Source: a virus | DNA length: 64,000 nucleotides | Strand: one strand, 5' to 3' | IMG/VR virus record: IMGVR_UViG_3300042691_020932 | Coordinates: 1-64,000 of that record | The notes under the pieces: generated by a model | Told to the model about the DNA's origin: nothing | Database searches by the model: none | The model's input: the letters and a program-made list of their open reading frames with translations, nothing else | Shown here: positions 45,601-63,899 of the stretch, piece after piece | How the letters are laid out: every line of letters begins with the position of its first letter | How positions within the stretch are numbered: position 1 is the stretch's first letter | Made by a program: the position numbers and the translations under genes

Positions 45601-48600
45601 AATTTAATATATCTTCAGAACCATACCCAAATCCTCCAGTTTCTATGAATACTGATTTAATTTCTCCACGCACAATTGGTTGAACAATTGCGTTAAAATT
45701 TTGATTTGTTCTTGAAGATACCCCTATTATTCCATCTAATTTTACTGTAATTGGTTCATAATTGAAATTGTGAATTCCAGATCCTTTTGTTTTGAAATTT
45801 ACAAATTGTTTTGTTTTATAATAAAAATCTTGCGTAGTAGTTACACCGACAACAGCAGAACCAATACCAACTGTTAATGCAGTACCGACCCTAGATAATT
45901 TAAAATAATTTTCATCGATTGATGTTACGTAATAAGATTTTCCTGAAGATAAACCAACTATTTCTTGTCCCGTTGTTGAATATACTACAATTTCGCCTGT
46001 CTTATAATTATGATTTGGTGCAAAAACTGAATTAGAACTAGTGCTAATTCCTGATGGAAATACAGAAATTTTTCTATTTCGGTATCCTTTTCCAGGATTT
46101 GTAATTTTAATTGAACTTACTTTCTTTTTTATTATTTGTGAAGAAAAGTTGTGTATTCCCACACCATAAGAAGTTAAGTCCACGGTGTTAATACCAACAA
46201 GAGCATCTTCATATGTCTTATGAAGTGTTATTGTATTTGAATCAATTACATAAGTATAATAAGTAGAATCTGTTGATAATCCACCAATAGATTGCTGACC
46301 CTTTGTTTTATAAATAATGCCTTCAGCATCTCTAAATTTATGATACGTTGTGAACCCTATAGTATTATTTGCTAGATTTACAAGTCCAATCGATTCAGTA
46401 GAGTTAAAAGAAACTGTATGTTCGACTGGGAATAAATCTACTTCTGCTATTGCACCACTTCCACTTCCGCCTGTTATAGAAACAGTTGGAGGTTTTAAAT
46501 AATCAAAACCGCCATCTATGACAACAATATTTTCAAATAAACCTTCAACTTCACAATATGCACTAGCGCCAGTGCCTACAGAATCTGATATTGAAAGAAC
46601 TGGTGGTGTGATTACATCATAATCCTCCCCAGAAGCTAAAACATTTATCTTTTCTAATGGACCATAAAAAACAGTGTCATCTGATTTATAATTTAAAATT
46701 TCTACACCGTTTGCAAGTATGCCAATAGTTCCCGTTTTAGTTTCATTTACTTCAGATACTTCTTGTGGTTTTTTTAATTTTTTTACTAATTTTTGAGACT
46801 GCAAGTACTTATTTGCCTGATCTGACATAACAATCTCATTATCCGTTACAGTCCCTGTAAGAGATATGTAAATATTTTTATATAAATTTTCTCTACTTCT
46901 AGATAATTTTATAGTAGATGAGTCAACTTTTTTTACAAAATAAATTCCTTCTGATATATTCAGTGAATTTTCTGTGGATTTTGGTTTATAAAAGATGGAA
47001 TCTCCCGTTAAAAAGTTGTGCTGCCCTACATTGATATTTTCAGAATAGTCAAAAGTTCCACTAAAAGTTACTGATCTTTTTTTAGTTTCTAGTTGAGAAT
47101 TGAAATAATTAGGTATCGATGAAGATGTTACGAGATAATTTCCTAAATTATCAACGTAAACATTCTGAACATTTGCAGTATAAACACTTGCTTCGGGAAA
47201 ATTTTGAAATTTTCCTTTTGATAAAACCCTATGAACCCAATCTTTCTTAGTCGTATCTATTTCGCCCTGACCACTTATATTAAATGATTTTGGATTCGAA
47301 ATTGATATTATGGTAGACTCAATTTTTGTACCATCTGTCAAAAATACTGAGATCCTATCTCCAATATGAAAATCGTTAGCATCAAAGGTCTTTACTTGAT
47401 ACGTGAAATTCTGAGTATCAATCAAAACTAAAGAATCTATCTGATATCTTGTTGCAACGTTAAACATCCAATTGTTTGCAACAATATCTTCACTATATTT
47501 TCCTAGCGTCTTAATTTTTATATTATTTCCTTCAGAAAAAAGTTTTGTATCAGAACCTAGATTAATATCAGATAAAACACCAGTAACTCTAACTTTTACG
47601 ATATTATTTGTTCCTATTCCAGAATATGCATAAGCATAAGAGTCAATTCTAATGTCTTGAGTCTGTGGAATAACTTGTGAAATTCCAGAGCATTCATAAA
47701 ATTGAGTATATGATTTTGATTTATAACTTATGGAAATGGAAGTTCCGTTATTCAAATCTGCAATTAAAGTTCCTGAATTTGGAAATCCTAGTGTGGAATC
47801 AACATCTATAACACTAGAACCAATTGAAACTGGGGTAATAGTTTTTGTGATTGGATGTATAGAAAATTCTCCGGAATTACTATTACTTTCATTTGGATTA
47901 TAATCTAGACTAAGAACATAATATTCTTTTTCTCCTCTAATAATTCTTTCAACATTGTTTATAGAACCAAATGCTTTTTGAAAAAAGTCAGTTTTGTCTT
48001 GGAATAAAGTTCTATTTACAATTTTTTCAGGATCTCCCTCAATAGCTTCAACGACTAAATCTTTTACAATCCGATATTGAGCATTTGATGGGATTAGTAA
48101 ATAATCGCGAGGTTTAATTACCTCAATCTCATCTCCATATAATGCTTTGAATAAAATTTTAAAAGATTGATCTGTACCTTTAGATGAATAAAAATCCTTT
48201 GACTGCTTAATAAATATATCCTGATTTAAATCAGAATAGAGTTTTCTATCCTCAAAACCAGGAGCAAACTGTTTTTTTATTTTTATAAAAAATTCTTTTA
48301 AAAATAAAATGCTAAGGTTAGTAACTGTTGAGCCTTCAAGATGTTCGTTAATTTGCGATGTAGAAAATACTAAATGATCTTTGCGACTTGGATTTTCATA
48401 CGAGGTTACTCCACTAAAGCCTCTTACACAACCATTAAAAGATGTATTTGTCTTTGATGTATATGTGATAATTTCATTATCAATCTGGATAAGTCCATAA
48501 GAATTGGGAAATCCTCCGGTAGATACTACATTAATAGTATCATCTGTTAAAGAAATACTAGATGTAGTTTTTGTCGAACTAGTTAATTTAGTTAAGTTAT

Positions 48601-54232: not shown

Positions 54233-54478
54233 TTAGAAGTCGAACACGTCGCTATTCAGTTGGATCACATTCACCCTAGGGTCAGAGAACTTAACACCGT
54301 CAGGAGTAGAGTATCCAACACCGATCTCTTTTACGAAGGTTTGGTAATCACCACACTCACGAGCGAGGTTATACAAACCCTCATCATTGTTGATCCAGAG
54401 AGCAACATTCCAGGTCTCATAATTCTCCCAACCGTTATAGGAAATGTCGAGAGCATTGCGTTGGAAAGTGTTAGTCAT
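54233..54478 (-). CDS. NYETW-motif small protein, DUF7249-like (81 aa)
   Basis: An 81-residue protein with SYNGWENYETWNVALWINND followed by EGLYNLAREC. The NGW-x-NYETW motif is shared by small phage and plasmid proteins that I remember as DUF7249; function unknown. It is the first gene after repeat copy 1. Confidence 0.75.
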   Translation of the reverse strand: MTNTFQRNALDISYNGWENYETWNVALWINNDEGLYNLARECGDYQTFVKEIGVGYSTPDGVKFSDPRVNVIQLNSDVFDF

Positions 54479-54523: not shown

Positions 54524-54551
54524 ATACTATTAGGACACTTTACGGGGCCCA
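54524..54551 (-). repeat. Intergenic 28-bp element, copy 1
   Basis: Minus strand: TGGGCC, four variable bases (CCGT), then AAAGTGTCCTAATAGTAT. It is the only copy with A in place of G in CTAGTAG. Located between the 48-residue gene and the NYETW gene; no gene starts at its ATG (the frame is eight codons). Confidence 0.9.
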
Positions 54552-54554
54552 GTA

Positions 54555-54701
54555 TTAGTCACTCACCCTACTTTGAATATCACTGAGAATCTCAGCTATC
54601 ACCTCTACGCTATCCCTATCGTTCTGCTCTAGTTGTTGCATAACGTCTTGCAGTTGTGGTAGGATACTGATGACTAGTTGCGGCACCCTGATAATACTCA
54701 T
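54555..54701 (-). CDS. Small hypothetical protein (48 aa)
   Basis: A 48-residue frame (MSIIRVPQLVISILPQLQDV, then a charged helix QQLEQNDRDSVEVIAEIL) that ends three bases before repeat copy 1. No family recognised. It lies directly after the 17-bp inverted repeat. Confidence 0.55.
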   Translation of the reverse strand: MSIIRVPQLVISILPQLQDVMQQLEQNDRDSVEVIAEILSDIQSRVSD

Positions 54702-54734
54702 TTCACCCAAATTCTTATACTTTAGTGGTCTCAT

Positions 54735-54786
54735 AGTTTTGTTAACATAACTGGGGGTATTTAGGGGGGGTTATGTTAACAAAACT
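54735..54786. repeat. Perfect 17-bp inverted repeat with C-rich loop
   Basis: Arms AGTTTTGTTAACATAAC (54735-54751) and its exact complement (54770-54786) around an 18-base loop. Each arm holds a GTTAAC palindrome. On the minus strand the loop reads CCCCCCTAAATACCCCCA, almost the same as the late-promoter segment at 55.04 kb. It lies between two small genes: terminator, operator or origin element are all possible. Confidence 0.9.
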
Positions 54787-54798
54787 CACATCACTAAA

Positions 54799-54972
54799 TC
54801 ACCACTTATCAGGACGGCTGAGGTCTTCCACGTATGCCGAAACCTTCTCAGCTGGTTCCAATTTGAATACCTTCTCCCACTCTAATTGATGAGGGTCGAA
54901 GTCCTCAAAGACTTCAAGTTCCAGAGTGACCCTATAACGCTGCTTCTGGGCTTGACGATATGCAACCGACAT
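54799..54972 (-). CDS. Small hypothetical protein (57 aa)
   Basis: A 57-residue frame (MSVAYRQAQKQRYRVTLELE, then HQLEWEKVFKLEP and SAYVEDLSRPDKW). It has a GGAG ribosome site 8 bases before the ATG and strong host-type and late promoter motifs upstream, so it is very likely real. I recall similar cyanophage proteins, function unknown. Confidence 0.72.
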   Translation of the reverse strand: MSVAYRQAQKQRYRVTLELEVFEDFDPHQLEWEKVFKLEPAEKVSAYVEDLSRPDKW

Positions 54973-55001
54973 AAGTGTGCTCCGTGAGTGTTACTGAGGA
55001 C

Positions 55002-55030
55002 AGTATAAGATGCTGAGGGCATTGTGTCAA
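55002..55030 (-). promoter_or_regulatory. Strong host sigma70-type promoter (TTGACA-17-TATACT)
   Basis: Minus-strand perfect TTGACA (55025-55030), 17-base spacer and TATACT (55002-55007), 30 bases upstream of the ATG at 54972. Confidence 0.82.
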
Positions 55031-55040
55031 GGTCTGGGGG

Positions 55041-55048
55041 TATTTATG
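55041..55048 (-). promoter_or_regulatory. Late-type promoter (CATAAATA)
   Basis: Minus-strand CATAAATA flanked by C-runs on both sides, 69 bases upstream of the ATG at 54972 and just upstream of the host-type promoter. Would give the same genes a late supply. Confidence 0.5.
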
Positions 55049-55320
55049 AGGGGGTTTATATGTGGCGGAGGATGTGTGGGGATTTGATGACGCGGGGGTG
55101 CTTGACATTTCTGGGAGTTTGTGATAGCTTGCGCGCAAAGATAACAAGACTCTGAGGCATTTAAAGGGCATTAAAAGGGTCTCTAATTGATACGAATTCT
55201 TATCATTATCACCTCTTAATAACAATAATTATCGCACAAATAAATCACTCAGCTATAATTAAAAAAGGCTTTTTCAAACGTTTTAATACATTTTTGACAC
55301 TAAATCACGTTTTTAGGCAT

Positions 55321-55346
55321 AAAAAAAGACCTCACGAATGAGGTCT
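55321..55346 (-). terminator. Rho-independent terminator of the small-gene operon
   Basis: Perfect 8-bp stem (55327-55334 with 55339-55346), UUCG tetraloop on the minus-strand RNA and seven T. It is 10 bases after the stop of the 78-residue gene. Confidence 0.92.
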
Positions 55347-55356
55347 CTATGTATAT

Positions 55357-55593
55357 TCAATCAAGTGCTAATCGGTAACGAGCATAATCCTCTGCATCGC
55401 TACGTTTGCGGAATCGTGCTTCTTCTCCTTCAAATCGTAGAGGCAAATACCTATACTTCTTACCTTCCTTAGTCATAACAATTCGGGAGAATAGGTGCAG
55501 TGAGTAACTACCATCCTCACTTCTTTCCTTCTCTTTCTTGACAATGAAAGGGAGAACTTGTTGATCGTTGAATGACTGTTTAGAGAGTAACAT
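55357..55593 (-). CDS. Hypothetical protein (78 aa), last gene of the operon
   Basis: A 78-residue basic protein (LPFIVKKEKERSEDGSYSLH, KKYRYLPLRFEGEEARFRKR, YARYRLALD). No family recognised. It is followed at once by a strong terminator. Confidence 0.72.
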   Translation of the reverse strand: MLLSKQSFNDQQVLPFIVKKEKERSEDGSYSLHLFSRIVMTKEGKKYRYLPLRFEGEEARFRKRSDAEDYARYRLALD

Positions 55594-55607
55594 GACGGAA
55601 TTGATTA

Positions 55608-55793
55608 TCAGAAACGAATGATAAGTTGATCTAGACCAAAGACATCAGAATCATATGGAGCAGACACTAACTCTACACCTGACTGATAATACATTGGCAA
55701 ATCATCAAATCCAGAATCACAAATGACGACATCTTGATTGAGTTGATCTTCGGTGAGAGATTGCAGTTGTGAGAGAAGTTCTTTGTAAGTCAT
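55608..55793 (-). CDS. Hypothetical protein (61 aa)
   Basis: A 61-residue protein (MTYKELLSQLQSLTEDQLNQ, DVVICDSGFDDLPMYYQSG). The N-terminal helix followed by a DVxxxDxxxDDxxP segment is a pattern common in small phage proteins; function unknown. It overlaps the upstream gene by four bases. Confidence 0.7.
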   Translation of the reverse strand: MTYKELLSQLQSLTEDQLNQDVVICDSGFDDLPMYYQSGVELVSAPYDSDVFGLDQLIIRF

Positions 55794-55972
55794 TTGGTAT
55801 AATCAATAATGAGTTGTTCGAGTGTATGAAGCGTCTTTACATTCCAGTTCTTAATATCACCATGAGGAGCATACAGTTTGCTATACCATCGACCATAAAG
55901 TTCAGGATTTAGATGTTGAACTTTCTCTAGAGTGTCAGCAATGAGAAAGTCAATTTGTTCTTGGTAATTCAC
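55790..55972 (-). CDS. Hypothetical protein with GTG start (60 aa)
   Basis: A 60-residue protein (NYQEQIDFLIADTLEKVQHL, KTLHTLEQLIIDY). The start codon is GTG at 55972, which overlaps the stop of the upstream gene (GTGA), supporting a coupled non-ATG start. Function unknown. Confidence 0.65.
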   Translation of the reverse strand: MNYQEQIDFLIADTLEKVQHLNPELYGRWYSKLYAPHGDIKNWNVKTLHTLEQLIIDYTK

Positions 55973-56100
55973 TGTACTAATTCAGCAGGACTTCCACAGG
56001 AGAGATAGAATTGAACCATCCTTTGTGCTTCATCAAGTGTAGGAAAGCTTTGCGTTCTCCATTGTTGTTGATAAGGCGTAAAGTATCGGATTGTGAACAT
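55969..56100 (-). CDS. Small hypothetical protein (43 aa)
   Basis: A 43-residue frame (MFTIRYFTPYQQQWRTQSFP, DEAQRMVQFYLSCGSPAEL). Its stop overlaps the GTG start of the next gene. The strand-helix pattern resembles other small proteins of this block. Function unknown. Confidence 0.6.
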   Translation of the reverse strand: MFTIRYFTPYQQQWRTQSFPTLDEAQRMVQFYLSCGSPAELVQ

Positions 56101-56101
56101 T

Positions 56102-56278
56102 TTAGTTTTGATTGTTGGAATAAAGAATGTCTAGCATTTGTTGGTAGTAGTTATCTGCTTCTACCTCACATTGATGAGACTGAGTTGCATCTTCAATCTC
56201 ATATTGTTTCATATTAAGAGAGTGAATCACGTTGTCTAGAAGATTAGTCAGTGCTTCAATCTTTTGTTCGTTAGTCAT
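56102..56278 (-). CDS. Hypothetical protein (58 aa)
   Basis: A 58-residue helical protein (MTNEQKIEALTNLLDNVIHS, EADNYYQQMLDILY). The ATG at 56278 shares its A with the stop of the upstream gene (TAATG). Function unknown. Confidence 0.65.
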   Translation of the reverse strand: MTNEQKIEALTNLLDNVIHSLNMKQYEIEDATQSHQCEVEADNYYQQMLDILYSNNQN

Positions 56279-56433
56279 TACAAACACCAATCAGCTCCTT
56301 CGGGATCGAATAACGTCCAGTTGCTAATATCTTGTGGGATGATATTATCTCGGGCAAAATCTCTTGCTTCTTGTTCAGTCTCAAACTCGTGAAAGTCGAG
56401 AATGTCATCATCGTTTTGGAGAAGATAAGACAT
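56278..56433 (-). CDS. Small acidic hypothetical protein (51 aa)
   Basis: A 51-residue frame (MSYLLQNDDDILDFHEFETE, QEARDFARDNIIPQDISNW) coupled on both sides by overlapping stop and start codons (TGATG upstream, TAATG downstream). Function unknown. Confidence 0.65.
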   Translation of the reverse strand: MSYLLQNDDDILDFHEFETEQEARDFARDNIIPQDISNWTLFDPEGADWCL

Positions 56434-56750
56434 CACTTAAGCACCATACCTTCAGTGAAAGGAATTGTGTTGTCATTATCTACAACAAACCATTCAAAGT
56501 CACGTTGAAAGATACGGGCATCATTTCCGTGAACTTTCAGAATAGCATTGAGACGTGATTTGGTGGTAGGAGTCTTATACCCACAGGTGTAAAGTTCAAG
56601 GAAGGTATCACCAATCGTTGCAATATGATTGCCATGAAGCATAACATATGAAGCATCACGTTCGGGCGAATAAGTTACCTCCGTGTTGTCATTTTTCCAG
56701 TCAGTGCAATCACAGATTGCTTTGTTCATTTGGGATTCGATCTTTCTCAT
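56433..56750 (-). CDS. Conserved phage hypothetical protein (105 aa)
   Basis: A 105-residue protein (MRKIESQMNKAICDCTDWKN, ASYVMLHGNHIATIGDTFLE, GYKTPTTKSRLNAILKVHG). The order WK-x-x-NT ... LHGN-x-IA ... TPTT-x-SR-x-NA is shared, as I remember, by small proteins of many phages; function unknown. The ATG at 56750 follows repeat copy 2 by 19 bases; reading through the repeat adds an implausible KCPSS leader. Confidence 0.75.
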   Translation of the reverse strand: MRKIESQMNKAICDCTDWKNDNTEVTYSPERDASYVMLHGNHIATIGDTFLELYTCGYKTPTTKSRLNAILKVHGNDARIFQRDFEWFVVDNDNTIPFTEGMVLK

Positions 56751-56769
56751 GGTAGGAAGTGTTGTGGTT

Positions 56770-56797
56770 ATACTACTAGGACACTTTGGGTGGCCCA
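56770..56797 (-). repeat. Intergenic 28-bp element, copy 2
   Basis: TGGGCC, ACCC, then AAAGTGTCCTAGTAGTAT on the minus strand, followed by AA instead of G. Upstream flank AACAAATAG is shared with copies 5 and 8. The next gene starts 19 bases downstream. Confidence 0.92.
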
Positions 56798-56808
56798 CTA
56801 TTTGTTAC

Positions 56809-57063
56809 TCAGAACTTTTCGATCCATTGTTGAATCTTTTGCAGTGCAGTTTGTTGATCGTTACACTTACACTTGCGGAACTTGGTAGTGTTTAATCCCT
56901 TGGAAATTAGTTCCAGTTTGCCATCAGCAAGACAGAAGATTCCATAGCGTGAGTTATGAAAAATGTTGTTAATCCATGACTCTTGACTATCAGCACTGAC
57001 CTTAATAAAAGTGGAATTGCGCCCACTTAAAGTGCTATTGTCGATGTGAAGATAAGGGAACAT
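56809..57063 (-). CDS. Hypothetical protein (84 aa)
   Basis: An 84-residue protein (MFPYLHIDNSTLSGRNSTFI, SRYGIFCLADGKLELISKG, FRKCKCNDQQTALQKIQQWI). It ends 11 bases before repeat copy 2. Function unknown. Confidence 0.7.
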   Translation of the reverse strand: MFPYLHIDNSTLSGRNSTFIKVSADSQESWINNIFHNSRYGIFCLADGKLELISKGLNTTKFRKCKCNDQQTALQKIQQWIEKF

Positions 57064-57067
57064 AATT

Positions 57068-57250
57068 TCAGAGAGAGAATACTTTATATGTCACAAGTTG
57101 GGAATCTCGATCATACTTTTCATAGGACCAAGTACCTTCGGTTTGTTCAACATAAGAGTGAACATTGTCATTGGAATCTTCTTTCCAAAAGGCACCAGTT
57201 TCAGGTTGGAAGAAATAACCAGAAGCGATAAGTGCGTCAGTGAATGTCAT
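57068..57250 (-). CDS. MTFT-ALIASGY paralogue 1 (60 aa)
   Basis: A 60-residue protein (MTFTDALIASGYFFQPETGA, FWKEDSNDNVHSY, TWSYEKYD). It is a paralogue of the 73-residue gene at 59.2-59.4 kb: both share MTFT-x-ALIASGY-x-F, a Lys-x-D/G-D-D core, H-x-Y and W-x-Y-x-K. The ATG at 57250 is set by that alignment. Function unknown. Confidence 0.72.
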   Translation of the reverse strand: MTFTDALIASGYFFQPETGAFWKEDSNDNVHSYVEQTEGTWSYEKYDRDSQLVTYKVFSL

Positions 57251-57277
57251 TGTGATTTCAGTGTTAAGTAACAATAA

Positions 57278-57484
57278 TCAGGCAGCGATTGCAGACTCTA
57301 GACATACCTCACGGGTTTCCATGATAGCATAATCAAAACCCTCAACTTCTTCTAGGTGCTTTTGATAAGCAACAGCAGCAGAGAAACAATCAAACAAGCG
57401 GAGAGATTTGAAGTTTTCACCTTCATAATCATAACCACCGATTACAGCGTAGACTTTCATTTCGGACATTTGGGAAGCGTTCAT
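57278..57484 (-). CDS. Hypothetical protein (68 aa), begins in repeat copy 3
   Basis: A 68-residue protein with MKVYAVIGGYDYEGENFKSL, then a helix AVAYQKHLEEVEGFDYAIME. Starts at 57484 (inside the repeat), 57469 or 57460 are all in frame; the last gives the MKVYAVIGG start that looks most like a conserved N-terminus. Function unknown; a small regulator-like strand-helix fold. Confidence 0.68.
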   Translation of the reverse strand: MNASQMSEMKVYAVIGGYDYEGENFKSLRLFDCFSAAVAYQKHLEEVEGFDYAIMETREVCLESAIAA

Positions 57485-57510
57485 ACTACTAGGACACTTT
57501 GGGTGGCCCA
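57483..57510 (-). repeat. Intergenic 28-bp element, copy 3
   Basis: TGGGCC, ACCC, then AAAGTGTCCTAGTAGTAT, followed by G so that it ends in ATG. Upstream flank GATAAACAC is shared with copy 6. Confidence 0.92.
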
Positions 57511-57529
57511 GTGTTTATCATCATCAATA

Positions 57530-57718
57530 TCAAGACTTTTTATAATCTCGATTCATTGCAGCAACTTGATAGGATGAACGTGCCACAATTTCATTCCTAG
57601 AAGTGTGTTGAGATTGTGCGCGATGATTATATCCTACCCACACAAAACCTTGTGTTTTAAGGTCACATGCAACATTGTAAATCATGAGATCAAGAATAGT
57701 AAAGATTTGCAATTTCAT
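57530..57718 (-). CDS. Hypothetical protein (62 aa or shorter)
   Basis: Up to 62 residues (MKLQIFTILDLMIYNVACDL, KTQGFVWVGYNHRAQSQHTS). The first ATG overlaps the upstream gene by 29 bases; an ATG at 57685 (MIYNVACDL) lies five bases after the upstream stop and is equally plausible. Function unknown. Confidence 0.55.
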   Translation of the reverse strand: MKLQIFTILDLMIYNVACDLKTQGFVWVGYNHRAQSQHTSRNEIVARSSYQVAAMNRDYKKS

Positions 57719-57923
57719 TGCGAAGACGATTCAGAGTCTCCCAGTTTGAAATATATCCAACCTCGGAAGAGATGCTATCATCGAAGGTCGCATATCCAAG
57801 GACATCGACAATATCGTTCACATACAATCCTTGGTGAGCATTGAGTTCTTCATCATCAAACTGGTTGAAGTAACGAACCAGAAAGTTGAGTGCTTCAGTG
57901 TAAAGTTCTTGAGTCATTTGCAT
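57690..57923 (-). CDS. Hypothetical protein (77 aa)
   Basis: A 77-residue acidic protein (MTQELYTEALNFLVRYFNQF, GLYVNDIVDVLGYATFDDS). A second ATG two codons in (57917) may be the real start. Function unknown. Confidence 0.65.
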   Translation of the reverse strand: MQMTQELYTEALNFLVRYFNQFDDEELNAHQGLYVNDIVDVLGYATFDDSISSEVGYISNWETLNRLRNEIANLYYS

Positions 57924-57941
57924 TTGATAGTATTTGGCAAT

Positions 57942-58109
57942 TCAGCGAAGTGTCAGAGAGCGAGTATCAATCCAAACACCTTTATCAGTACCCATTCGGA
58001 AACTATGATCCCACACAAAGTGTGTCGCTTCCTGATTGGTAAGAATAAACTGTTTGCAGAGAATCTCTACTGCTTCAAAGATATTTGAGAATCGGAGAGT
58101 TGTAGACAT
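57942..58109 (-). CDS. Hypothetical protein (55 aa)
   Basis: A 55-residue protein (MSTTLRFSNIFEAVEILCKQ, EATHFVWDHSFRMGTDKGVW). The ATG at 58109 is 22 bases after repeat copy 4, which ends in ATAA and offers no start. Function unknown. Confidence 0.65.
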   Translation of the reverse strand: MSTTLRFSNIFEAVEILCKQFILTNQEATHFVWDHSFRMGTDKGVWIDTRSLTLR

Positions 58110-58131
58110 TTTGGGAAGTCTGTAAGGGGTT

Positions 58132-58159
58132 ATACTACTAGGACACTTTGGGTGGCCCA
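58132..58159 (-). repeat. Intergenic 28-bp element, copy 4
   Basis: TGGGCC, ACCC, then AAAGTGTCCTAGTAGTAT, followed by AA. Upstream flank AGTTTCAAATGATTAG, which includes the last codons of the preceding gene, is identical to that of copy 7. Confidence 0.92.
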
Positions 58160-58306
58160 CTAATCATTTGAAACTAAAATCGTCGGACCTTCAACTTGAC
58201 AAAACTCCAACAGATAGTAATCAATAGTGATTCCAAGTTGTGATGCTTCAGTATAAAACTGTTGATATTGTTGACCGTCAAGAATAAAGAAATCAGTTTC
58301 AATCAT
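58160..58306 (-). CDS. Small hypothetical protein (48 aa)
   Basis: A 48-residue protein (MIETDFFILDGQQYQQFYTE, then ITIDYYLLEFC). The ATG at 58306 overlaps the 3' end of the membrane-protein gene. The last residues (VSND) are encoded by the flank shared with repeat copy 7. Function unknown. Confidence 0.62.
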   Translation of the reverse strand: MIETDFFILDGQQYQQFYTEASQLGITIDYYLLEFCQVEGPTILVSND

Positions 58307-58451
58307 GGGGTGCGATAATGTCAGCGACAGTGTGTAATGTGGTTGAAGTTGTGTTACGAACTGCAGGAGAAAGTATAAACGCAACAGCAAAGATCAGGAG
58401 AATTGTCTTCACTTTGTCGGGTGACTTGAATGTTAGACTTTTGCGTGACAT
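58299..58451 (-). CDS. Small single-span membrane protein candidate (50 aa)
   Basis: A 50-residue frame: basic N-terminus (MSRKSLTFKSPDKVK), a hydrophobic span ILLIFAVAFILSPAV, then a Thr-rich tail. Positive residues before the span predict an N-in orientation. It overlaps the next gene by eight bases. Function unknown. Confidence 0.58.
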   Translation of the reverse strand: MSRKSLTFKSPDKVKTILLIFAVAFILSPAVRNTTSTTLHTVADIIAPHD

Positions 58452-58456
58452 TCAAA

Positions 58457-58672
58457 CTAAGATCCACCGTACACATATTCGATTACACCTGCCTCATCAA
58501 GTCCTACAGATTCGATGACAGTGAATCGTGCATAGTTATCAAACTCATCTGCATAGTAATCTCCAACCTCTTTGATAAACAACTCGCGGCATTGTTCTTT
58601 GTTCTCAGCAGCAATAACTACCATTCCAGAGGTATAATCAGAGAGGACATTGTTAATGATAAACAGTTTCAT
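58457..58672 (-). CDS. Conserved small hypothetical protein (71 aa)
   Basis: A 71-residue protein (MKLFIINNVLSDYTSGMVVI, AAENKEQCRELFIKEVGDYY). Strand-helix-strand layout; I recall MKLF-x-DYTSGMVV proteins in other cyanophages. Function unknown. Confidence 0.7.
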   Translation of the reverse strand: MKLFIINNVLSDYTSGMVVIAAENKEQCRELFIKEVGDYYADEFDNYARFTVIESVGLDEAGVIEYVYGGS

Positions 58673-58687
58673 GGTTTTAGTTAAGTT

Positions 58688-58918
58688 TCAGTCGAAGCGA
58701 GAGGATACATCAGGACCAGGATTCTCAAGGTGTGCAACACTATCAGCAACACCTTCAGCAGTTAGTGCAAATTGTACTTTTTTGCCTTCGTGATAGATGT
58801 CAAAGACAGATTGGACGTAAGGTGTTAGGTTGCCTTGCGAATCCCAGGCATTTCGTGTATGCGAAGTCTCAACGATTTCGTAGACTTTAGAGGTGAGAGG
58901 TGAAGTGTAGGTCATCAT
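58688..58918 (-). CDS. Hypothetical protein (76 aa), begins in repeat copy 5
   Basis: A 76-residue protein (MMTYTSPLTSKVYEIVETSH, VFDIYHEGKKVQFALTAEGV). The start is one of two adjacent ATGs (58918 or 58915); the first is formed by the repeat. Function unknown. Confidence 0.68.
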   Translation of the reverse strand: MMTYTSPLTSKVYEIVETSHTRNAWDSQGNLTPYVQSVFDIYHEGKKVQFALTAEGVADSVAHLENPGPDVSSRFD

Positions 58919-58944
58919 ACTACTAGGACACTTTGGGGGGCCCA
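58917..58944 (-). repeat. Intergenic 28-bp element, copy 5
   Basis: TGGGCC, CCCC, then AAAGTGTCCTAGTAGTAT ending in ATG. Upstream flank AACAAATAG as in copies 2 and 8. Confidence 0.92.
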
Positions 58945-59175
58945 CTATTTGTTTCGGGTGGATTCAGTTGTTACACTCTCCACCAATTCTTGCAGTTCAT
59001 CGTCATCATAATAGTGCGACAGTTCTTCCATCAATTCACTCTCTTTATAGTCAATCATACTATCACAAATTGTGTCAATCGCAAATGCACACAAATCGCG
59101 CACATCCATATTGTCAACAACTCGCTCAGCATAGAGTTGAACGATCTTGGAAAGTTGGTCTTGAGAAAGTGTCAT
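58945..59175 (-). CDS. Conserved small acidic protein (76 aa)
   Basis: A 76-residue helical protein (MTLSQDQLSKIVQLYAERVV, MDVRDLCAFAIDTICDSM, ELMEELSHYYDDDELQELVE). The ATG at 59175 is preferred over non-ATG starts upstream. I remember related cyanophage proteins with the LYAERIVDGMD motif; function unknown. Confidence 0.72.
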   Translation of the reverse strand: MTLSQDQLSKIVQLYAERVVDNMDVRDLCAFAIDTICDSMIDYKESELMEELSHYYDDDELQELVESVTTESTRNK

Positions 59176-59201
59176 TTTGTTTGTAGGATTAGGAAGGGAA
59201 A

Positions 59202-59423
59202 TCATTGAATAACAGTGCTAGTATCAGGATTGAAAGTAACTTCGGAGATCACATCAAAATCATCACTCATCTTGACATAATTCCAGAGAGTGTCAGTCTC
59301 ATCATCCACATTTTCCTGATAAAGGTGAATGAAACCGTCATCACCTTGTTTTACATAACAACCATCATAATTCTCATCATCAAATACATAACCAGATGCA
59401 ATCAGTGCTTCAGTAAATGTCAT
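59202..59423 (-). CDS. MTFT-ALIASGY paralogue 2 (73 aa)
   Basis: A 73-residue protein (MTFTEALIASGYVFDDENYD, GCYVKQGDDGFIHLYQENVD, TLWNYVKMSDD), a paralogue of the 60-residue gene at 57.1-57.25 kb. The ATG at 59423 overlaps the stop of the upstream secreted-type gene (TGATG). Function unknown. Confidence 0.72.
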   Translation of the reverse strand: MTFTEALIASGYVFDDENYDGCYVKQGDDGFIHLYQENVDDETDTLWNYVKMSDDFDVISEVTFNPDTSTVIQ

Positions 59424-59557
59424 CATTTGCAGTAGTTAGGGTTAATTTGGCAGAACTGATCTGCTTGGCGTTCTTGATACTCACTGGTCGTTGCGTGTGC
59501 TATCAAACCAAAGCGAAGACCGAGTGCTAGAGTAGCAATCAAAAAAGCAATTCGCAT
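59423..59557 (-). CDS. Small exported protein candidate (44 aa)
   Basis: A 44-residue frame with an N-terminal signal-like segment (MRIAFLIATLALGLRFGLIA, then a possible AHA cleavage site) and a short mature part with two Cys (EYQERQADQFCQINPNYCK). If cleaved, only about 23 residues would reach the periplasm. It overlaps both neighbours by TGATG junctions. Role unknown. Confidence 0.6.
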   Translation of the reverse strand: MRIAFLIATLALGLRFGLIAHATTSEYQERQADQFCQINPNYCK

Positions 59558-59703
59558 CAGACTTCATCCCTCATTTCGGTGAGTTTGTCATACAGAGCAG
59601 GAATATCTGTCTCTGTAAGTTCAGTCAAATAGCACCAATCGCTAGACTCAAGAACTGCAAGAAGAGTATCAATCTCTTCAAAAGTGAGAGTGGTTTGTGT
59701 CAT
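59557..59703 (-). CDS. Small acidic hypothetical protein (48 aa)
   Basis: A 48-residue helical frame (MTQTTLTFEEIDTLLAVLES, ELTETDIPALYDKLTEMRD) coupled to the exported-protein gene by TGATG. Function unknown. Confidence 0.62.
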   Translation of the reverse strand: MTQTTLTFEEIDTLLAVLESSDWCYLTELTETDIPALYDKLTEMRDEV

Positions 59704-59705
59704 AT

Positions 59706-59891
59706 TCAATCAACGACAGAGTAACAAGCAACCCAGGAAGGAATCCCAGAGAGTGATAACGAACCATTGCGGGCATCGCAATAGTCTTGTGCGTCATCTT
59801 CAGTGTAGAAAGGTCCAATATACTCGGGAGAATTGAGTGCATTGGAATCGAAGCGAACTGTGAATGTTTCAGTCATTGTGGTTTGTCTCAT
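59706..59891 (-). CDS. Hypothetical protein (61 aa), begins in repeat copy 6
   Basis: A 61-residue protein (MRQTTMTETFTVRFDSNALN, YTEDDAQDYCDARNGSLSLS). The first ATG is the one inside the repeat; a second ATG five codons later is possible. Function unknown. Confidence 0.65.
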   Translation of the reverse strand: MRQTTMTETFTVRFDSNALNSPEYIGPFYTEDDAQDYCDARNGSLSLSGIPSWVACYSVVD

Positions 59892-59917
59892 ACTACTAGG
59901 ACACTTTGCAGGGCCCA
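59890..59917 (-). repeat. Intergenic 28-bp element, copy 6
   Basis: TGGGCC, CTGC, then AAAGTGTCCTAGTAGTAT ending in ATG. Upstream flank GATAAACAC as in copy 3. Confidence 0.92.
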
Positions 59918-59924
59918 GTGTTTA

Positions 59925-60251
59925 TCAGTTACGCATCAGGGAAAGATAACCATCCTCGGAGAGAGTATCCTCAGACAGGTTGACATTGCGAGCACAAGAG
60001 ATTGCATCAGCAAAGTTATCGAAAGTACCAAAGTTTTTCTGATTACCACACCAGCAACCTTTGTACTCATAAATCATTGCTTCCACAGTAAATACATCGT
60101 TTTTGAAGTTACGATCTACACTGTGCTTGATATAAACTTTCCCGTCATTTCGGGTGTACTTATCGAAGATGGAAGACTTGAAAGTAAGAGTGAAATCAGT
60201 GATGAAATCACCAGTGAGATTGATGCTTTTTTGGAAGAGAGTTTCAGTCAT
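59925..60251 (-). CDS. Hypothetical protein (108 aa)
   Basis: A 108-residue protein (SINLTGDFITDFTLTFKSSI, GKVYIKHSVDRNFKNDVFTV, YKGCWCGNQKNFGTFDNFAD). The ATG is 25 bases after repeat copy 7. Function unknown. Confidence 0.72.
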   Translation of the reverse strand: MTETLFQKSINLTGDFITDFTLTFKSSIFDKYTRNDGKVYIKHSVDRNFKNDVFTVEAMIYEYKGCWCGNQKNFGTFDNFADAISCARNVNLSEDTLSEDGYLSLMRN

Positions 60252-60276
60252 TTAGTGGTTTTTCGTTTGAGTCCTT

Positions 60277-60304
60277 ATACTACTAGGACACTTTAGGTGG
60301 CCCA
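60277..60304 (-). repeat. Intergenic 28-bp element, copy 7
   Basis: TGGGCC, ACCT, then AAAGTGTCCTAGTAGTAT, followed by AAGGA. Upstream flank AGTTTCAAATGATTAG is identical to copy 4, although the preceding genes read it in different frames. Confidence 0.92.
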
Positions 60305-60308
60305 CTAA

Positions 60309-60452
60309 TCATTTGAAACTCACATTCACTCCAACAATTCTAGCAGTAGGATTGCGTACTTTTGCTGTCTCGCGTGCATCTTTTGGAGAGTTAGCATATA
60401 CTTCCTCCTTAAAGACTTTGCCACCAACGTAGAGATCAACGATGTACTTCAT
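60309..60452 (-). CDS. Small conserved hypothetical protein (47 aa)
   Basis: A 47-residue frame (MKYIVDLYVGGKVFKEEVYA, NSPKDARETAKVRNPTARIV). The MKYIVDLY ... DARETAK-x-RNP pattern recurs in small phage proteins that I remember, function unknown. The last residues are encoded by the flank shared with copy 4. Confidence 0.65.
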   Translation of the reverse strand: MKYIVDLYVGGKVFKEEVYANSPKDARETAKVRNPTARIVGVNVSFK

Positions 60453-60483
60453 GTGCTTGTTTGTATTTTAGAAAAAATTGATG

Positions 60484-60526
60484 ATTTCACTGCAGTGGAT
60501 GACCTTTGACCCGTGTGCAGTGAAAT
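60484..60526. repeat. 11-bp inverted repeat in a 137-base noncoding gap
   Basis: Perfect arms ATTTCACTGCA (60484-60494) and TGCAGTGAAAT (60516-60526) with a 21-base loop. No T-run follows, so it may be an operator or RNA processing site rather than a terminator. The rest of the gap (60453-60589) holds no gene. Confidence 0.75.
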
Positions 60527-60589
60527 TGCAGAAAAATCAGGTTTTTGGTTGAGTGGTGGACTGGGTTCTCGGTGAGACTCAAGTGAGAA

Positions 60590-60784
60590 TCACAGGGTCT
60601 GCCAGTCTTGTGCCTCTTTCAAGTTAGAGTTAAAGAACTTTTGCAAGATAGACTCAATTACAGGTTGCCACTGTTTGTCTTTAATTGAGTCACGATTCTG
60701 TGCTTCGACAAGAAACTTAAGGATGCAAGTCTCTTCGTTTGGAGTGAAGTCAACGCGAGTGAAAGTGTAACCGTCAGTCATCAT
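60590..60784 (-). CDS. Hypothetical protein (64 aa)
   Basis: A 64-residue protein (TDGYTFTRVDFTPNEETCIL, QPVIESILQKFFNSNLKEAQ). Two adjacent ATGs (60784 and 60781) overlap the upstream stop. Function unknown. Confidence 0.68.
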   Translation of the reverse strand: MMTDGYTFTRVDFTPNEETCILKFLVEAQNRDSIKDKQWQPVIESILQKFFNSNLKEAQDWQTL

Positions 60785-61008
60785 TTAATCCAGCAACTTT
60801 TGTTTGATTTGTTTTGTGCTCTTGCAAAAGAACCAGCATCGTGGCATAATTTAGAGAGTTTAATTAGAACCTCACGATCTTTCACTGGACGCTCAAATGC
60901 AAGATCATTGTTCATACTTAGAGAGACCAAATCTCTCAACAATCTTTCACATCGAAGTGCCTCATTGATTGTAAAGTTTTCGTTGATAATTGGGCGAAAG
61001 TTCTTCAT
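60781..61008 (-). CDS. Hypothetical protein (75 aa)
   Basis: A 75-residue helical protein (MKNFRPIINENFTINEALRC, ERLLRDLVSLSMNNDLAF). The ATG at 61008 lies two bases after the upstream stop; a TTG two codons earlier is less likely. Function unknown. Confidence 0.68.
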   Translation of the reverse strand: MKNFRPIINENFTINEALRCERLLRDLVSLSMNNDLAFERPVKDREVLIKLSKLCHDAGSFARAQNKSNKSCWIK

Positions 61009-61010
61009 AA

Positions 61011-61178
61011 TCAAACAGGAAAAACTTCTACAGAACGAATAAGATTTGTGCGATCTTGTGCTAGGTAATCATCAGCGATTTTACCACACGATGAACGAGA
61101 TTGAATAATCTTTTCCTCATAAAGATTCTCATCTTCATCAGGAACCCAATACTCAATCAGCATACGATAGGTTTTCAT
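61011..61178 (-). CDS. Small hypothetical protein (55 aa)
   Basis: A 55-residue frame (MKTYRMLIEYWVPDEDENLY, KIADDYLAQDRTNLIRSVEV) starting in a TGATG overlap with the upstream gene. Function unknown. Confidence 0.62.
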   Translation of the reverse strand: MKTYRMLIEYWVPDEDENLYEEKIIQSRSSCGKIADDYLAQDRTNLIRSVEVFPV

Positions 61179-61426
61179 CAGTAGTGTGCCTCAGAGTAGT
61201 CAAGAACTTCGCTGTACTTAGCGATACCATCATAGCAACGCTTTGCCATTTCAGAATCACCTTCAGCGATGTAACCTTTCAGAAACTCAAAGCAGTATTT
61301 GATACGCTGCTCTGGAGTAACTTTAGCGAGTTGTTGTTGCTTACGCTCATAGGCAGCGTTGTAGGCAAACATCTCACGATCTTCGAGGGAGATGTTGTGA
61401 AACTTGCGGTCGGTAGTGTTATTCAT
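61178..61426 (-). CDS. Hypothetical protein (82 aa), begins in repeat copy 8
   Basis: An 82-residue helical protein (REMFAYNAAYERKQQQLAKV, CFEFLKGYIAEGDSEMAKRC). Its ATG is the one inside the repeat. Function unknown. Confidence 0.7.
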   Translation of the reverse strand: MNNTTDRKFHNISLEDREMFAYNAAYERKQQQLAKVTPEQRIKYCFEFLKGYIAEGDSEMAKRCYDGIAKYSEVLDYSEAHY

Positions 61427-61452
61427 ACTACTAGGACACTTTGCAGGGCCCA
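61425..61452 (-). repeat. Intergenic 28-bp element, copy 8
   Basis: TGGGCC, CTGC, then AAAGTGTCCTAGTAGTAT ending in ATG. Upstream flank AACAAATAG as in copies 2 and 5; the TAA of that flank is the stop of the preceding gene. Confidence 0.92.
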
Positions 61453-61459
61453 CTATTTG

Positions 61460-61714
61460 TTACCAGCGGCCTTGTTGTATGAGAATCTTTTTGATTTCAG
61501 TATAAATGAACTGACGAAGTTTAGTGTCGGCAGTGTTATCAAAAGCATAATAAAGACGATTCAAATACTCATTCTGTGTCAGTCCAATGTTACCATCACC
61601 ACCGATTTCATTGAGTGATGAACCTGCCTGCACACGATTCTTTCCAAAGTTGCCAGACACACGCCCAGTTGTTCTCAGTTTGGGCTTTATCTTTGAGAGA
61701 TTAGAGTATGTCAT
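61460..61714 (-). CDS. Hypothetical protein (84 aa)
   Basis: An 84-residue protein (MTYSNLSKIKPKLRTTGRVS, basic, then YLNRLYYAFDNTADTKLRQF). It overlaps the upstream gene by four bases. Function unknown. Confidence 0.7.
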   Translation of the reverse strand: MTYSNLSKIKPKLRTTGRVSGNFGKNRVQAGSSLNEIGGDGNIGLTQNEYLNRLYYAFDNTADTKLRQFIYTEIKKILIQQGRW

Positions 61715-61896
61715 TTGAATTGTTCTAGAACATCAATAAAGTGTTGGATACAATCTTTGGGGATGTGGATGGTTTGGTATCCAGGACCATTACCATCTTC
61801 CACACTCACAGTGCCATACTCATCAGCAGTAAAATCAAAACTCCAACCATCTTCTTCGTGTTCGATTTTGATGTGTTTGGTGATAGTGTAAGTCAT
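61711..61896 (-). CDS. Hypothetical protein (61 aa)
   Basis: A 61-residue protein (MTYTITKHIKIEHEEDGWSF, DFTADEYGTVSVEDGNGPG). Overlaps both neighbours by four bases (ATGA). Function unknown. Confidence 0.68.
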   Translation of the reverse strand: MTYTITKHIKIEHEEDGWSFDFTADEYGTVSVEDGNGPGYQTIHIPKDCIQHFIDVLEQFK

Positions 61897-62066
61897 TCAT
61901 CCTCCTCATAAGGAAACATTTCGTCGTATTCTTCGTCAGTTAGAGTGAGATACTGAACATCAGCATTTTTGTGCTCTTCAGCATACACTAATTGATAGTG
62001 TGCGAAAGAAGATGGGTCACTGCTAGCATACTCTACCAGACCATCAACAATACAAAGGTAGTTCAT
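61893..62066 (-). CDS. Small acidic hypothetical protein (57 aa)
   Basis: A 57-residue frame (MNYLCIVDGLVEYASSDPSS, YLTLTDEEYDEMFPYEEDE) coupled on both sides by ATGA overlaps. Function unknown. Confidence 0.63.
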   Translation of the reverse strand: MNYLCIVDGLVEYASSDPSSFAHYQLVYAEEHKNADVQYLTLTDEEYDEMFPYEEDE

Positions 62067-62287
62067 CGTGCCAAAGATAAGTTGTATTTGATAATCAAAA
62101 GGTCTCGCACTTGTTCTCGGTCGATACTATCACCACAGAACGGCACTTCTTTAATCTTTGCAATCCTGATAATGTCGTTGGTTGCTTTACGAACTAGAGT
62201 ACGATTTGCACCCATCGGATATAATCCATCAGGACCATAGAACGACATCACATAATCAATGAAATCGTTAATAAACTCTTTAGACAT
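62063..62287 (-). CDS. Hypothetical protein (74 aa)
   Basis: A 74-residue protein (MSKEFINDFIDYVMSFYGPD, RKATNDIIRIAKIKE, REQVRDLLIIKY). The ATG at 62287 is preferred over a GTG two codons upstream. Function unknown. Confidence 0.68.
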   Translation of the reverse strand: MSKEFINDFIDYVMSFYGPDGLYPMGANRTLVRKATNDIIRIAKIKEVPFCGDSIDREQVRDLLIIKYNLSLAR

Positions 62288-62289
62288 AA

Positions 62290-62724
62290 TCACTTAGCGT
62301 AGAGATAACCACCAGACCAATCGGCATTCTCCAGCAGATATTCACGATCTTTGATCAATCGCAGATCATAACGAACACCTTTGGCAGGAGATTTCCAAGT
62401 CGCAGACTTATATACTTCGCCAGTGTTCTTGTCAATGAAGCAATGAACGGAGCGGGAACCGCCACCACTCACAAAGATGACTTTGTGATACTTTTTACCA
62501 GTCTCAACAGTATAATCAATGTCACACTTGCCAGACTTGAGTTCATCAACCTTGCGAATGTGATACTCTACATTCTCACCACGCTCAGCAGAAGTCTGAT
62601 GACCGCGAATAGAATACTGACGATAGTTGTCTTTCAGTGCTTCAATCAGCAGGAGAGTGTGCTTATACACATTCTCTGCGATGGTTTGTTTTGCTTGTGC
62701 TTGCATTTCAGTGGTTGTACTCAT
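62290..62724 (-). CDS. Conserved phage hypothetical protein (144 aa), begins in repeat copy 9
   Basis: A 144-residue protein. The C-terminal half (GKKYHKVIFVSGGGSRSVHC, FIDKNTGEVYKSATWKSPAK, ADWSGGYLY) has the SVH-x-FIDK-x-TGEVYK-x-A-x-WK-x-PAKGVRY pattern that I recall as widely conserved among phages, function unknown. It starts at the ATG inside repeat copy 9. Confidence 0.75.
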   Translation of the reverse strand: MSTTTEMQAQAKQTIAENVYKHTLLLIEALKDNYRQYSIRGHQTSAERGENVEYHIRKVDELKSGKCDIDYTVETGKKYHKVIFVSGGGSRSVHCFIDKNTGEVYKSATWKSPAKGVRYDLRLIKDREYLLENADWSGGYLYAK

Positions 62725-62750
62725 ACTACTAGGACACTTTGCAGGGCCCA
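62723..62750 (-). repeat. Intergenic 28-bp element, copy 9
   Basis: TGGGCC, CTGC, then AAAGTGTCCTAGTAGTAT ending in ATG. It directly abuts the stop of the ligase-like gene. Confidence 0.92.
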
Positions 62751-62751
62751 A

Positions 62752-63666
62752 TTACCAACTCTTTGCCATTGTGAAGTTTGCGTGAGAGAATGTCTCGCGA
62801 TCCACTACTTTGAAGATGCCGTAATCGTTTTTGATTACATAACCCTCGTGGAAACTTGCCACATCCCACAGGAAACATTCGATGTCGTCTTCTTCGTGAA
62901 TGAAGAGGAACAAATCATCCTTGATTGTCTTCACCAACTTCCAAAGCCGGATGAGGTTCTTGTCACAATCACATTTTTCTGCAATTTCATCCTCACAGAT
63001 GATACGTTGCTCCCTGATGCAAGCATTGATCTCTTTTTTGATTTGTGATGCCTTGCGATCACTCACAAACTCACACAGAGTTGACATTTGCTTGGCAAAC
63101 TTACACACATCTGCCAAATCCTCACGATAAGGATTCAGGGACACTGCAGGTTGCACGAATAAGCATTTCTTAGTGCTTGCAAACTTGCTGGTGATAGGGT
63201 GTGCTACCATTTCAGGCAGACGCTCACCAGTGTAGTAAGTATGGGGAGCAACGATAATCTCTTGACGAACAACCTCAGGAAACTTATAGGTAATGGTGTT
63301 GGGTTTGAATGTATCAAGACCCTTACCGAAACCAATCCAATCTCCCTGATACACATTGTTAGTGCGAGGCAGGAAATCCAAGCAATAGATGAGGATTTGC
63401 GTTACGCGAGGTTGACCGCCAAAATGGGTAAAGATGTCGTCCTCGTTATAGCACAGGCGAATCTTTTGCTTATTAAATGCTGCTTTGGTGCAGACAAAAA
63501 ACTTACCATTCTCAGGATTAGTGCCCCAAACAATAGCAGGAGCGCCATCCATCTTGACACTGATAGTAGAATCAGCACTGAACCAATCGAGCACCGAAAG
63601 ATCACCATTTAGGATAGAATCTTCGGGATGTTCGATATGTTTGTTTTGCATTGGTTGCTTACTCAT
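62752..63666 (-). CDS. DUF6267-like protein with nucleotidyltransferase (ligase-type) motifs (304 aa)
   Basis: A 304-residue protein starting at the ATG of repeat copy 10 (MSKQPMQNKHIEHPEDSIL). It resembles the DUF6267 family as I remember it. Two features point to the covalent nucleotidyltransferase (DNA/RNA ligase) fold: K38-M-D-G at residues 38-41 in ISVKMDGAPAIVWG (motif I, K-x-D-G) and, near the end, EGYVIKNDYGIFKVVDR, which fits motif IV (EG-x-V) and motif V (K). No DNA-binding or OB domain is recognisable. A role in nucleic-acid end repair is inference. Confidence 0.75.
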   Translation of the reverse strand: MSKQPMQNKHIEHPEDSILNGDLSVLDWFSADSTISVKMDGAPAIVWGTNPENGKFFVCTKAAFNKQKIRLCYNEDDIFTHFGGQPRVTQILIYCLDFLPRTNNVYQGDWIGFGKGLDTFKPNTITYKFPEVVRQEIIVAPHTYYTGERLPEMVAHPITSKFASTKKCLFVQPAVSLNPYREDLADVCKFAKQMSTLCEFVSDRKASQIKKEINACIREQRIICEDEIAEKCDCDKNLIRLWKLVKTIKDDLFLFIHEEDDIECFLWDVASFHEGYVIKNDYGIFKVVDRETFSHANFTMAKSW

Positions 63667-63692
63667 ACTACTAGGACACTTTGCAGGGCCCA
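63665..63692 (-). repeat. Intergenic 28-bp element, copy 10
   Basis: TGGGCC, CTGC, then AAAGTGTCCTAGTAGTAT ending in ATG. First copy of the operon in the direction of transcription. Confidence 0.92.
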
Positions 63693-63695
63693 GAA

Positions 63696-63899
63696 TCAAA
63701 CCTCTGCCAGTTTCTGTAGACGATTGCGAATATCAAAGAGTTCCATATCATCCATATCTACAGCATCCAAATCTACAGGAGCAAACTCCTCCAGATTTAC
63801 ACTACCATCAGAATAAATGGGGGCATAGTACAACTCATCGCCATCTTCTTGCGATAGAGTATAAACGCAACCGTGATTAGTGGAAGTAACGAAAATCAT
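63696..63899 (-). CDS. Conserved small acidic protein (67 aa)
   Basis: A 67-residue protein (MIFVTSTNHGCVYTLSQEDG, APIYSDGSVNLEEFAPVD). The ATG at 63899 is chosen over a GTG inside the upstream hairpin. Similar cyanophage proteins come to mind, function unknown. It is the first complete gene of the operon. Confidence 0.72.
   Translation of the reverse strand: MIFVTSTNHGCVYTLSQEDGDELYYAPIYSDGSVNLEEFAPVDLDAVDMDDMELFDIRNRLQKLAEV

Follow-up and report, generated by a model that had tools for sequence, protein, structure and literature searches.

Systems in which a repeated phage site is paired with a cognate protein are already known. At the middle promoters of T4, the place of the -35 element ahead of the -10 is occupied by a phage-specific box (the MotA box), and a phage protein reads it, with AsiA also involved; marine T4-like cyanophages have been reported without MotA and/or AsiA (PMC5780444). 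Cluster A mycobacteriophages, which are temperate, carry many short, asymmetric stoperators, mostly in one orientation, whose motif varies with the cognate immunity repressor (PMC6550527). The start-associated sequences (SAS) of Cluster K phages, GGGATAGGAGCCC, are repeated in one orientation directly upstream of the starts of small non-structural genes, with a Shine-Dalgarno AGGAG 3–7 bp before the ATG (PMC3203893). In T4-like phages, PeSLs (Arbiol 2010 and Comeau 2014, as described in PMC4503421), each an early promoter plus a stem-loop, form repeated regulatory cassettes that lie between the small genes of variable regions. Here, we analyze a repeated element in a 64,000-base stretch of viral DNA (the window; positions 1 to 64,000 of the 82,590-base IMG/VR record IMGVR_UViG_3300042691_020932). 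Ten copies occur in the window, each made up of TGGGCC, four variable bases, and the 18-base core AAAGTGTCCTAGTAGTAT. The virus is a T4-like cyanomyovirus: the window holds families of the major head, scaffold, portal, sheath, and terminase proteins, and the isolates closest to it are phages of Synechococcus and Prochlorococcus, most of them Kyanoviridae.

Sequence comparison with relatives leads us to a reading that we hold with modest confidence: the element would be regulatory and specific to a clade of T4-like cyanophages, most likely as a phage-specific promoter, with its box bound by C193, a protein that is probably injected with the DNA. The C-terminal helical segment of C193 would bind the box, and box-bound C193 would recruit the host RNA polymerase to the -10. 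If synthesized late, packaged into the head, and delivered along with the DNA, the protein could act immediately in the next infection. We lean slightly against a stronger form of this proposal, in which each phage packs an activator that recognizes its own early promoters by sequence and the specificities have been co-rewritten (more than 20 box/C-terminus classes) over a common -10 core, giving mutually unreadable early programs and a protein-DNA code in a short helix. The genes behind the element are small and probably early, judging by their position and by analogy with Syn9.

Compared with the systems above, the element resembles T4 middle promoters in its phage-specific box at the place of the -35, but more than 20 box types occur and none has the MotA box (TGCTT core); unlike MotA, the candidate reader carries a capsid-targeting signal and showed no known DNA-binding fold in the searches described below. 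It shares with stoperators its many short sites in one orientation and a motif varying with a protein, whereas here the phage is T4-like, the sites lie at gene starts and include a -10-like part, and C193 is unrelated to the immunity repressor. Its repetition before small genes recalls the SAS, but it contains neither the SAS sequence nor a Shine-Dalgarno, whose absence an earlier note on this DNA had pointed out, and the ATG lies inside the element or at an offset of at least 31. Unlike PeSLs, it has no stem-loop.

Anatomy of the element across phages

The earlier note had described ten copies in a single orientation, a core identical in nine of them, and none among the core genes, and each of these points held. 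The copies lie at exactly the coordinates it gave, every one on the minus strand and pointing the same way as the genes; the core is the same in 9 of 10, with a single change in the copy at 54524; 0 copies are expected in the window from sequence shuffles; and matching the 18-base core with up to 3 mismatches found nothing in the window outside the ten. Its start-codon tally also stood, with six copies giving the next ATG (class 1) and three ending in ATAA (class 2):

54524..54551, minus strand: copy 1, TGGGCCCCGT-AAAGTGTCCTAATAGTATGA; TATGA, with the ATG frame soon closed and the next gene start at 54478
56770..56797, minus strand: copy 2, class 2; TATAA end, ATG of the next gene downstream
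57483..57510, minus strand: copy 3, class 1; the element ATG opens the open reading frame (ORF) 57278-57484
58132..58159, minus strand: copy 4, class 2; ATAA end
58917..58944, minus strand: copy 5, class 1; the following ORF (MMTYTSPLTSKVYEI...) has no near start other than the element ATG
59890..59917, minus strand: copy 6, class 1; ORF 59706-59891, with a further in-frame ATG at offset 31
60277..60304, minus strand: copy 7, class 2; ATAA end, ORF start at 60251
61425..61452, minus strand: copy 8, class 1; supplies the next ATG
62723..62750, minus strand: copy 9, class 1; supplies the next ATG
63665..63692, minus strand: copy 10, class 1; precedes the DUF6267/phrog_455 gene 62752-63699

Across the whole record, an eleventh exact copy lies at 68535, and looser matching adds five with a GGGCC box (64227, 65952, 68048, 69592, and 73154), so the element block extends beyond the window.

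We scanned IMG/VR with the 18-base core, using copies from among the matches listed, and collected copies with a relaxed consensus, which yielded 857 distinct ones compared with 36 on reversed sequence, our control. The element recurs at gene boundaries in many phages, including S-SM2, SynMITS9220M01, S-B05, and the Prochlorococcus phage P-TIM68. This search, proposed in the earlier note as a check, refutes the note's fallback explanation, recent random duplication inside one genome. The window copies are nearly identical, as that explanation has it, but the element is kept before orthologous genes in many phages, a Prochlorococcus phage among them, and its conservation is position-specific; we give duplication practically no weight.

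Numbered from the first A of AAAGTGT as 0, the element has its parts at fixed spacing: a box of 7–8 bp at -12 to -6; C at -5 in 98–99% of copies, followed by C or G and then mostly T at -4/-3; AAAGTGT at 0–6; a variable patch at 7–11; TAGT at 12–15, R at 16, and T at 17; and RAGCAC through 23. Boxes are near-identical within a phage and differ between phages, with more than 20 types. The invariance of the 18-base core is therefore local: in relatives, AAAGTGT and TAGTRT are kept and the patch between them varies. TGGGCC, although common to the window copies, is the phage-specific part and lies outside the universal consensus. A 30-mer of the window element matched no isolate by BLAST, its box being phage-specific; isolates were found with a query carrying another box. 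In five contigs (L198, L049, L094, L061, and L006), one or two copies have a foreign box and the many others the contig's own, as would result from recent import of a gene together with its element.

The segment TAGTRT is -10-like, with T12 in 99–100%, A13 in 97%, and T17 in at least 98% of copies. These bases correspond to the invariant T1, A2, and T6 of a host sigma-70 -10, although the segment differs from TATAAT at positions 3–4. The earlier note had called the sigma-70 match poor, with no -35; the place of a TTGACA-like -35 is taken by boxes such as TGGGCC, GGGGGGTC (S-SM2), and TTACTCAC (SynMITS9220M01). A -35 hexamer at a 17-bp spacer from TAGTRT would coincide with the box. In S-B05, the spacing between box and TAGT is retained although the middle has been rewritten to AAANGTCCAC.

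Within a contig, boxes differ by 0.09 per base, compared with 0.62 between contigs; for the patch at 7–11 the values are 0.27 and 0.45, and the flanks show no such difference. Conversion or duplication of the whole repeat would homogenize the patch as well, and since only the box is homogenized, the natural explanation is that a trans-acting factor reads it. The same contrast bears on a further reading, that the copies are PeSL-type recombination joints shuffling gene cassettes, with regulation secondary. The elements do sit at gene boundaries in a variable region of small genes, and the few contigs with a single foreign box among their own resemble recipients of imported cassettes. A homogeneous box beside a varying patch and flanks disfavors recombination and duplication alike, however; there is no stem-loop, and a covarying protein would be unexpected. 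We regard recombination joints, one of three readings offered in the earlier note, as highly improbable.

In S-SM2, SynMITS9220M01, and two further genomes (G001 and G003), the DUF6267/phrog_455 gene and others are again preceded by this core, but the box differs. In the element-less phages Bellamy, S-SCSM1, and Syn9, the same slot before orthologous genes holds a longer promoter-like module, GTGTCCAC/GTGGCAC ... TATAAGAGTCAAAGG or close variants (L257, L302, L320, and L321), and we saw no convincing copies of this module in element-bearing genomes. The Syn9 form, AGTGTCCAC/GTGGCAC...TATAAGAGTCAAAGG, resembles our element in recurring ahead of small genes in a T4-like cyanophage, and some of these genes are common to both; its layout is different, and homology between the two was rejected, with only GTGTCC clearly common. 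Among the readings in the earlier note, a phage-specific promoter fits best, supported by the different promoter-like module in the slot of element-less relatives and by a box one -35 spacing (17 bp) upstream of TAGTRT. A literature search with the literal element sequences returned nothing relevant; it did not cover Doron et al. 2016 (10.1038/ismej.2015.210), who reportedly described an early-gene regulatory element of Syn9, so an earlier description is possible.

C193 and its pairing with the box

Three small same-strand families are present in 9 of 9 element-bearing genomes and in 0 of 4 element-less ones (S-PM2, Bellamy, S-SCSM1, and Syn9 stretches), and C193 alone among the three follows the box.

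68573-69151 of the record, outside the window, minus strand: C193, a basic orphan protein (about 175–250 residues in its family; locus SSM2_065 in S-SM2)

Searches of eleven further element-less isolates did not find C193. The small families A66 and B90 were dropped as candidate readers, since they co-occur with the element and do not follow the box; a sugar-epimerase signal proved to be an artifact of paralogy.

We compared parts of C193 with the box among 55 non-redundant members, taking the N-terminus as an internal control for shared ancestry. The last 60 residues gave an area under the curve (AUC) of 0.863, and the nearest neighbor belonged to the right box class in 42 of 50 cases; no label shuffle reached the C-terminal value. 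The N-terminal part gave 0.617 and 23/50 and the middle 0.632 and 24/50, and C-terminal similarity decreases as box distance grows (Mantel 0.60, compared with 0.23 for the N-terminus). Across 79 ORF families scanned, the best nearest-neighbor score belonged to C193 (47/57; chance about 0.10, median 0.23), and antisense frames of C193 account for several of the other high scorers.

The pairing extends to loci retrieved by C193 alone. Elements were found in 75 of 75 newly numbered C193 loci (407 matches, compared with 64 on reversed sequence). After contigs recognized as already used were left out (n = 64), the nearest training C-terminus gave the exact 7-base box in 45 and a box at most one base off in 49; for the nearest training N-terminus the counts were 26 and 31. 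Among proteins less than 0.75 similar overall, the C-terminus gave the exact box in 19 of 35 and the N-terminus in 3 of 35. A tblastn search with C193 over 50,697 phage records matched the known element-bearing phages plus P-TIM68 and AG-345-E15, both of which carry the element: P-TIM68 has boxes GTTAGTTAC/GTTAGTAAC (also GTTAGTTA) and a TAGTAA-class C193 C-terminus, and AG-345-E15 has box AACTGAAGC and a CTGAAG-class C-terminus. AG-345-O18 combines box AGGGGGGTC with a GGGGGT-class C-terminus. We consider the box-C193 pairing well supported and know of no description of it.

Within the C193 motif SGxTRxERxxxxRxG, the residues after ER change with the box: LKVT occurs with TTGGAT, KALY with GGGGGA, KALT with GGGGGT, and xxQQ with TAGTAA. 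This correspondence is a lead toward a protein-DNA code, not proof of contacts. In the AlphaFold2 model, most of the chain is disordered and the C-terminus is helical and predicted with more confidence, and comparison of C193 with Pfam and PHROG gave no family above noise.

T4 internal proteins are packed by means of an N-terminal targeting sequence (PMC3012670). The N-terminus of C193, MKTFQEFIAEA, nearly matches that of T4 IpIII, MKTYQEFIAEA, as a resemblance in sequence only. For 44 of 45 C193 genes, the 70 nucleotides upstream contain TAAATA or a closely similar sequence (background 3.6%), and the same type of motif precedes many virion genes in the window. Because it combines a T4-type capsid-targeting N-terminus with a late-promoter motif, C193 would be made late, packaged, and injected as a DNA-binding protein, recalling the T4 internal head proteins IpI, IpIII, and Alt. 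The T4 proteins are anti-restriction or RNA polymerase-modifying, and none, to our knowledge, is a sequence-specific promoter regulator. Nor do we know of any protein that combines a capsid signal with a re-writable recognition of -35-like boxes in a T4-like phage.

Two other proteins have capsid-targeting-like starts: a 215-residue protein beside C193 (L126:6627-7274, minus strand; start MLTFREFYEICEG), and a 408-residue protein beginning MKSFFQFLSEA, which is found in phages with and without the element.

The late motif also accommodates a reading in which C193, made late, acts as a repressor or roadblock and closes these genes late in infection, in the manner of stoperators; many sites in one orientation covarying with a cognate protein are what Cluster A mycobacteriophages show (PMC6550527). 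The box, however, lies at the place of the -35 with no consensus -35 present, so a promoter here would need an activator, and a capsid-targeting signal is unexpected in a purely late repressor. We judge repression unlikely.

Start codons and the competing readings

An ATG at offset 16 is present in 496 copies. The frame it opens stays open for 120 nucleotides in 93% of them, compared with 0–4% for the other frames, so this internal ATG is translated when present. In these copies, further ATGs at offsets 31–40 occur only at 31, 34, 37, and 40, all in frame. For the remaining 361 copies, the first open ATG lies mostly at 31 or beyond, with a peak at 33–34 and no frame rule.

These starts give some room to a role in RNA, in which C193 would bind the mRNA leader through the box and control translation, stability, or processing of the next gene. 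The start codon lies inside the element, where it is translated in frame, or at an offset of at least 31, and so basic a protein as C193 could bind RNA. On the other hand, the consensus across 23 box types has no conserved RNA fold or stem-loop, Rfam returned no match for the element, and the start codon keeps no single distance from it. A candidate hairpin pairing AGTGT with an ACACT further downstream was dropped on inspection, as S-B05 does not have it. The fixed spacing between box and TAGTRT is that of a promoter, and relatives carry a promoter-like module in the same slot. A role in RNA or translation, which the earlier note had listed beside promoter and recombination joint, seems to us rather unlikely.

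Several observations weigh against our preferred reading of a promoter with C193 as its activator. The class-1 ATG falls inside the presumed -10, and a transcript starting about 7 nucleotides past TAGTRT would miss it, which makes the 119 such copies without a second ATG nearby awkward for a promoter; leaderless starts, read-through, or a role in RNA could explain the overlap. The N-terminus of C193 is also above chance in following the box, so shared ancestry makes up part of the association, and a few families, mostly small and one of them an antisense frame of C193, equal or exceed C193 on AUC by whole-protein similarity. Comparison with PDB by sequence and by fold gave nothing above noise and no known DNA-binding fold. 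Finally, S-B43 (MN018232) has at least 8 elements and no detectable C193, which may reflect gene loss, an assembly gap, or another reader. A search of the record for a single-subunit RNA polymerase (PF00940) gave no match, and neither did its control.

Implications and neighboring genes

T4-like cyanophages are abundant aquatic viruses reported without the MotA/AsiA route of T4. If the promoter reading is true, the site controlling a gene block in a whole clade would be named together with its protein, and the proposal could be tested in the described isolates S-SM2, SynMITS9220M01, S-B05, and P-TIM68. C193 would then be an injected sequence-specific activator, unlike the polymerases or polymerase-modifying enzymes that other phages inject, and could explain separate programs of co-infecting phages. 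The table of boxes and C-termini is a natural library for a protein-DNA recognition code.

Elsewhere in the window, a single ORF of 4028 residues (36686-48772, minus strand) lies within a block of large ORFs and is by far the longest. The DUF6267/phrog_455 protein (62752-63699, minus strand; Pfam E 4e-79) is widely conserved among these phages and contains KMDGAPAIVWG, which resembles the lysine motif of nucleotidyltransferases and ligases.

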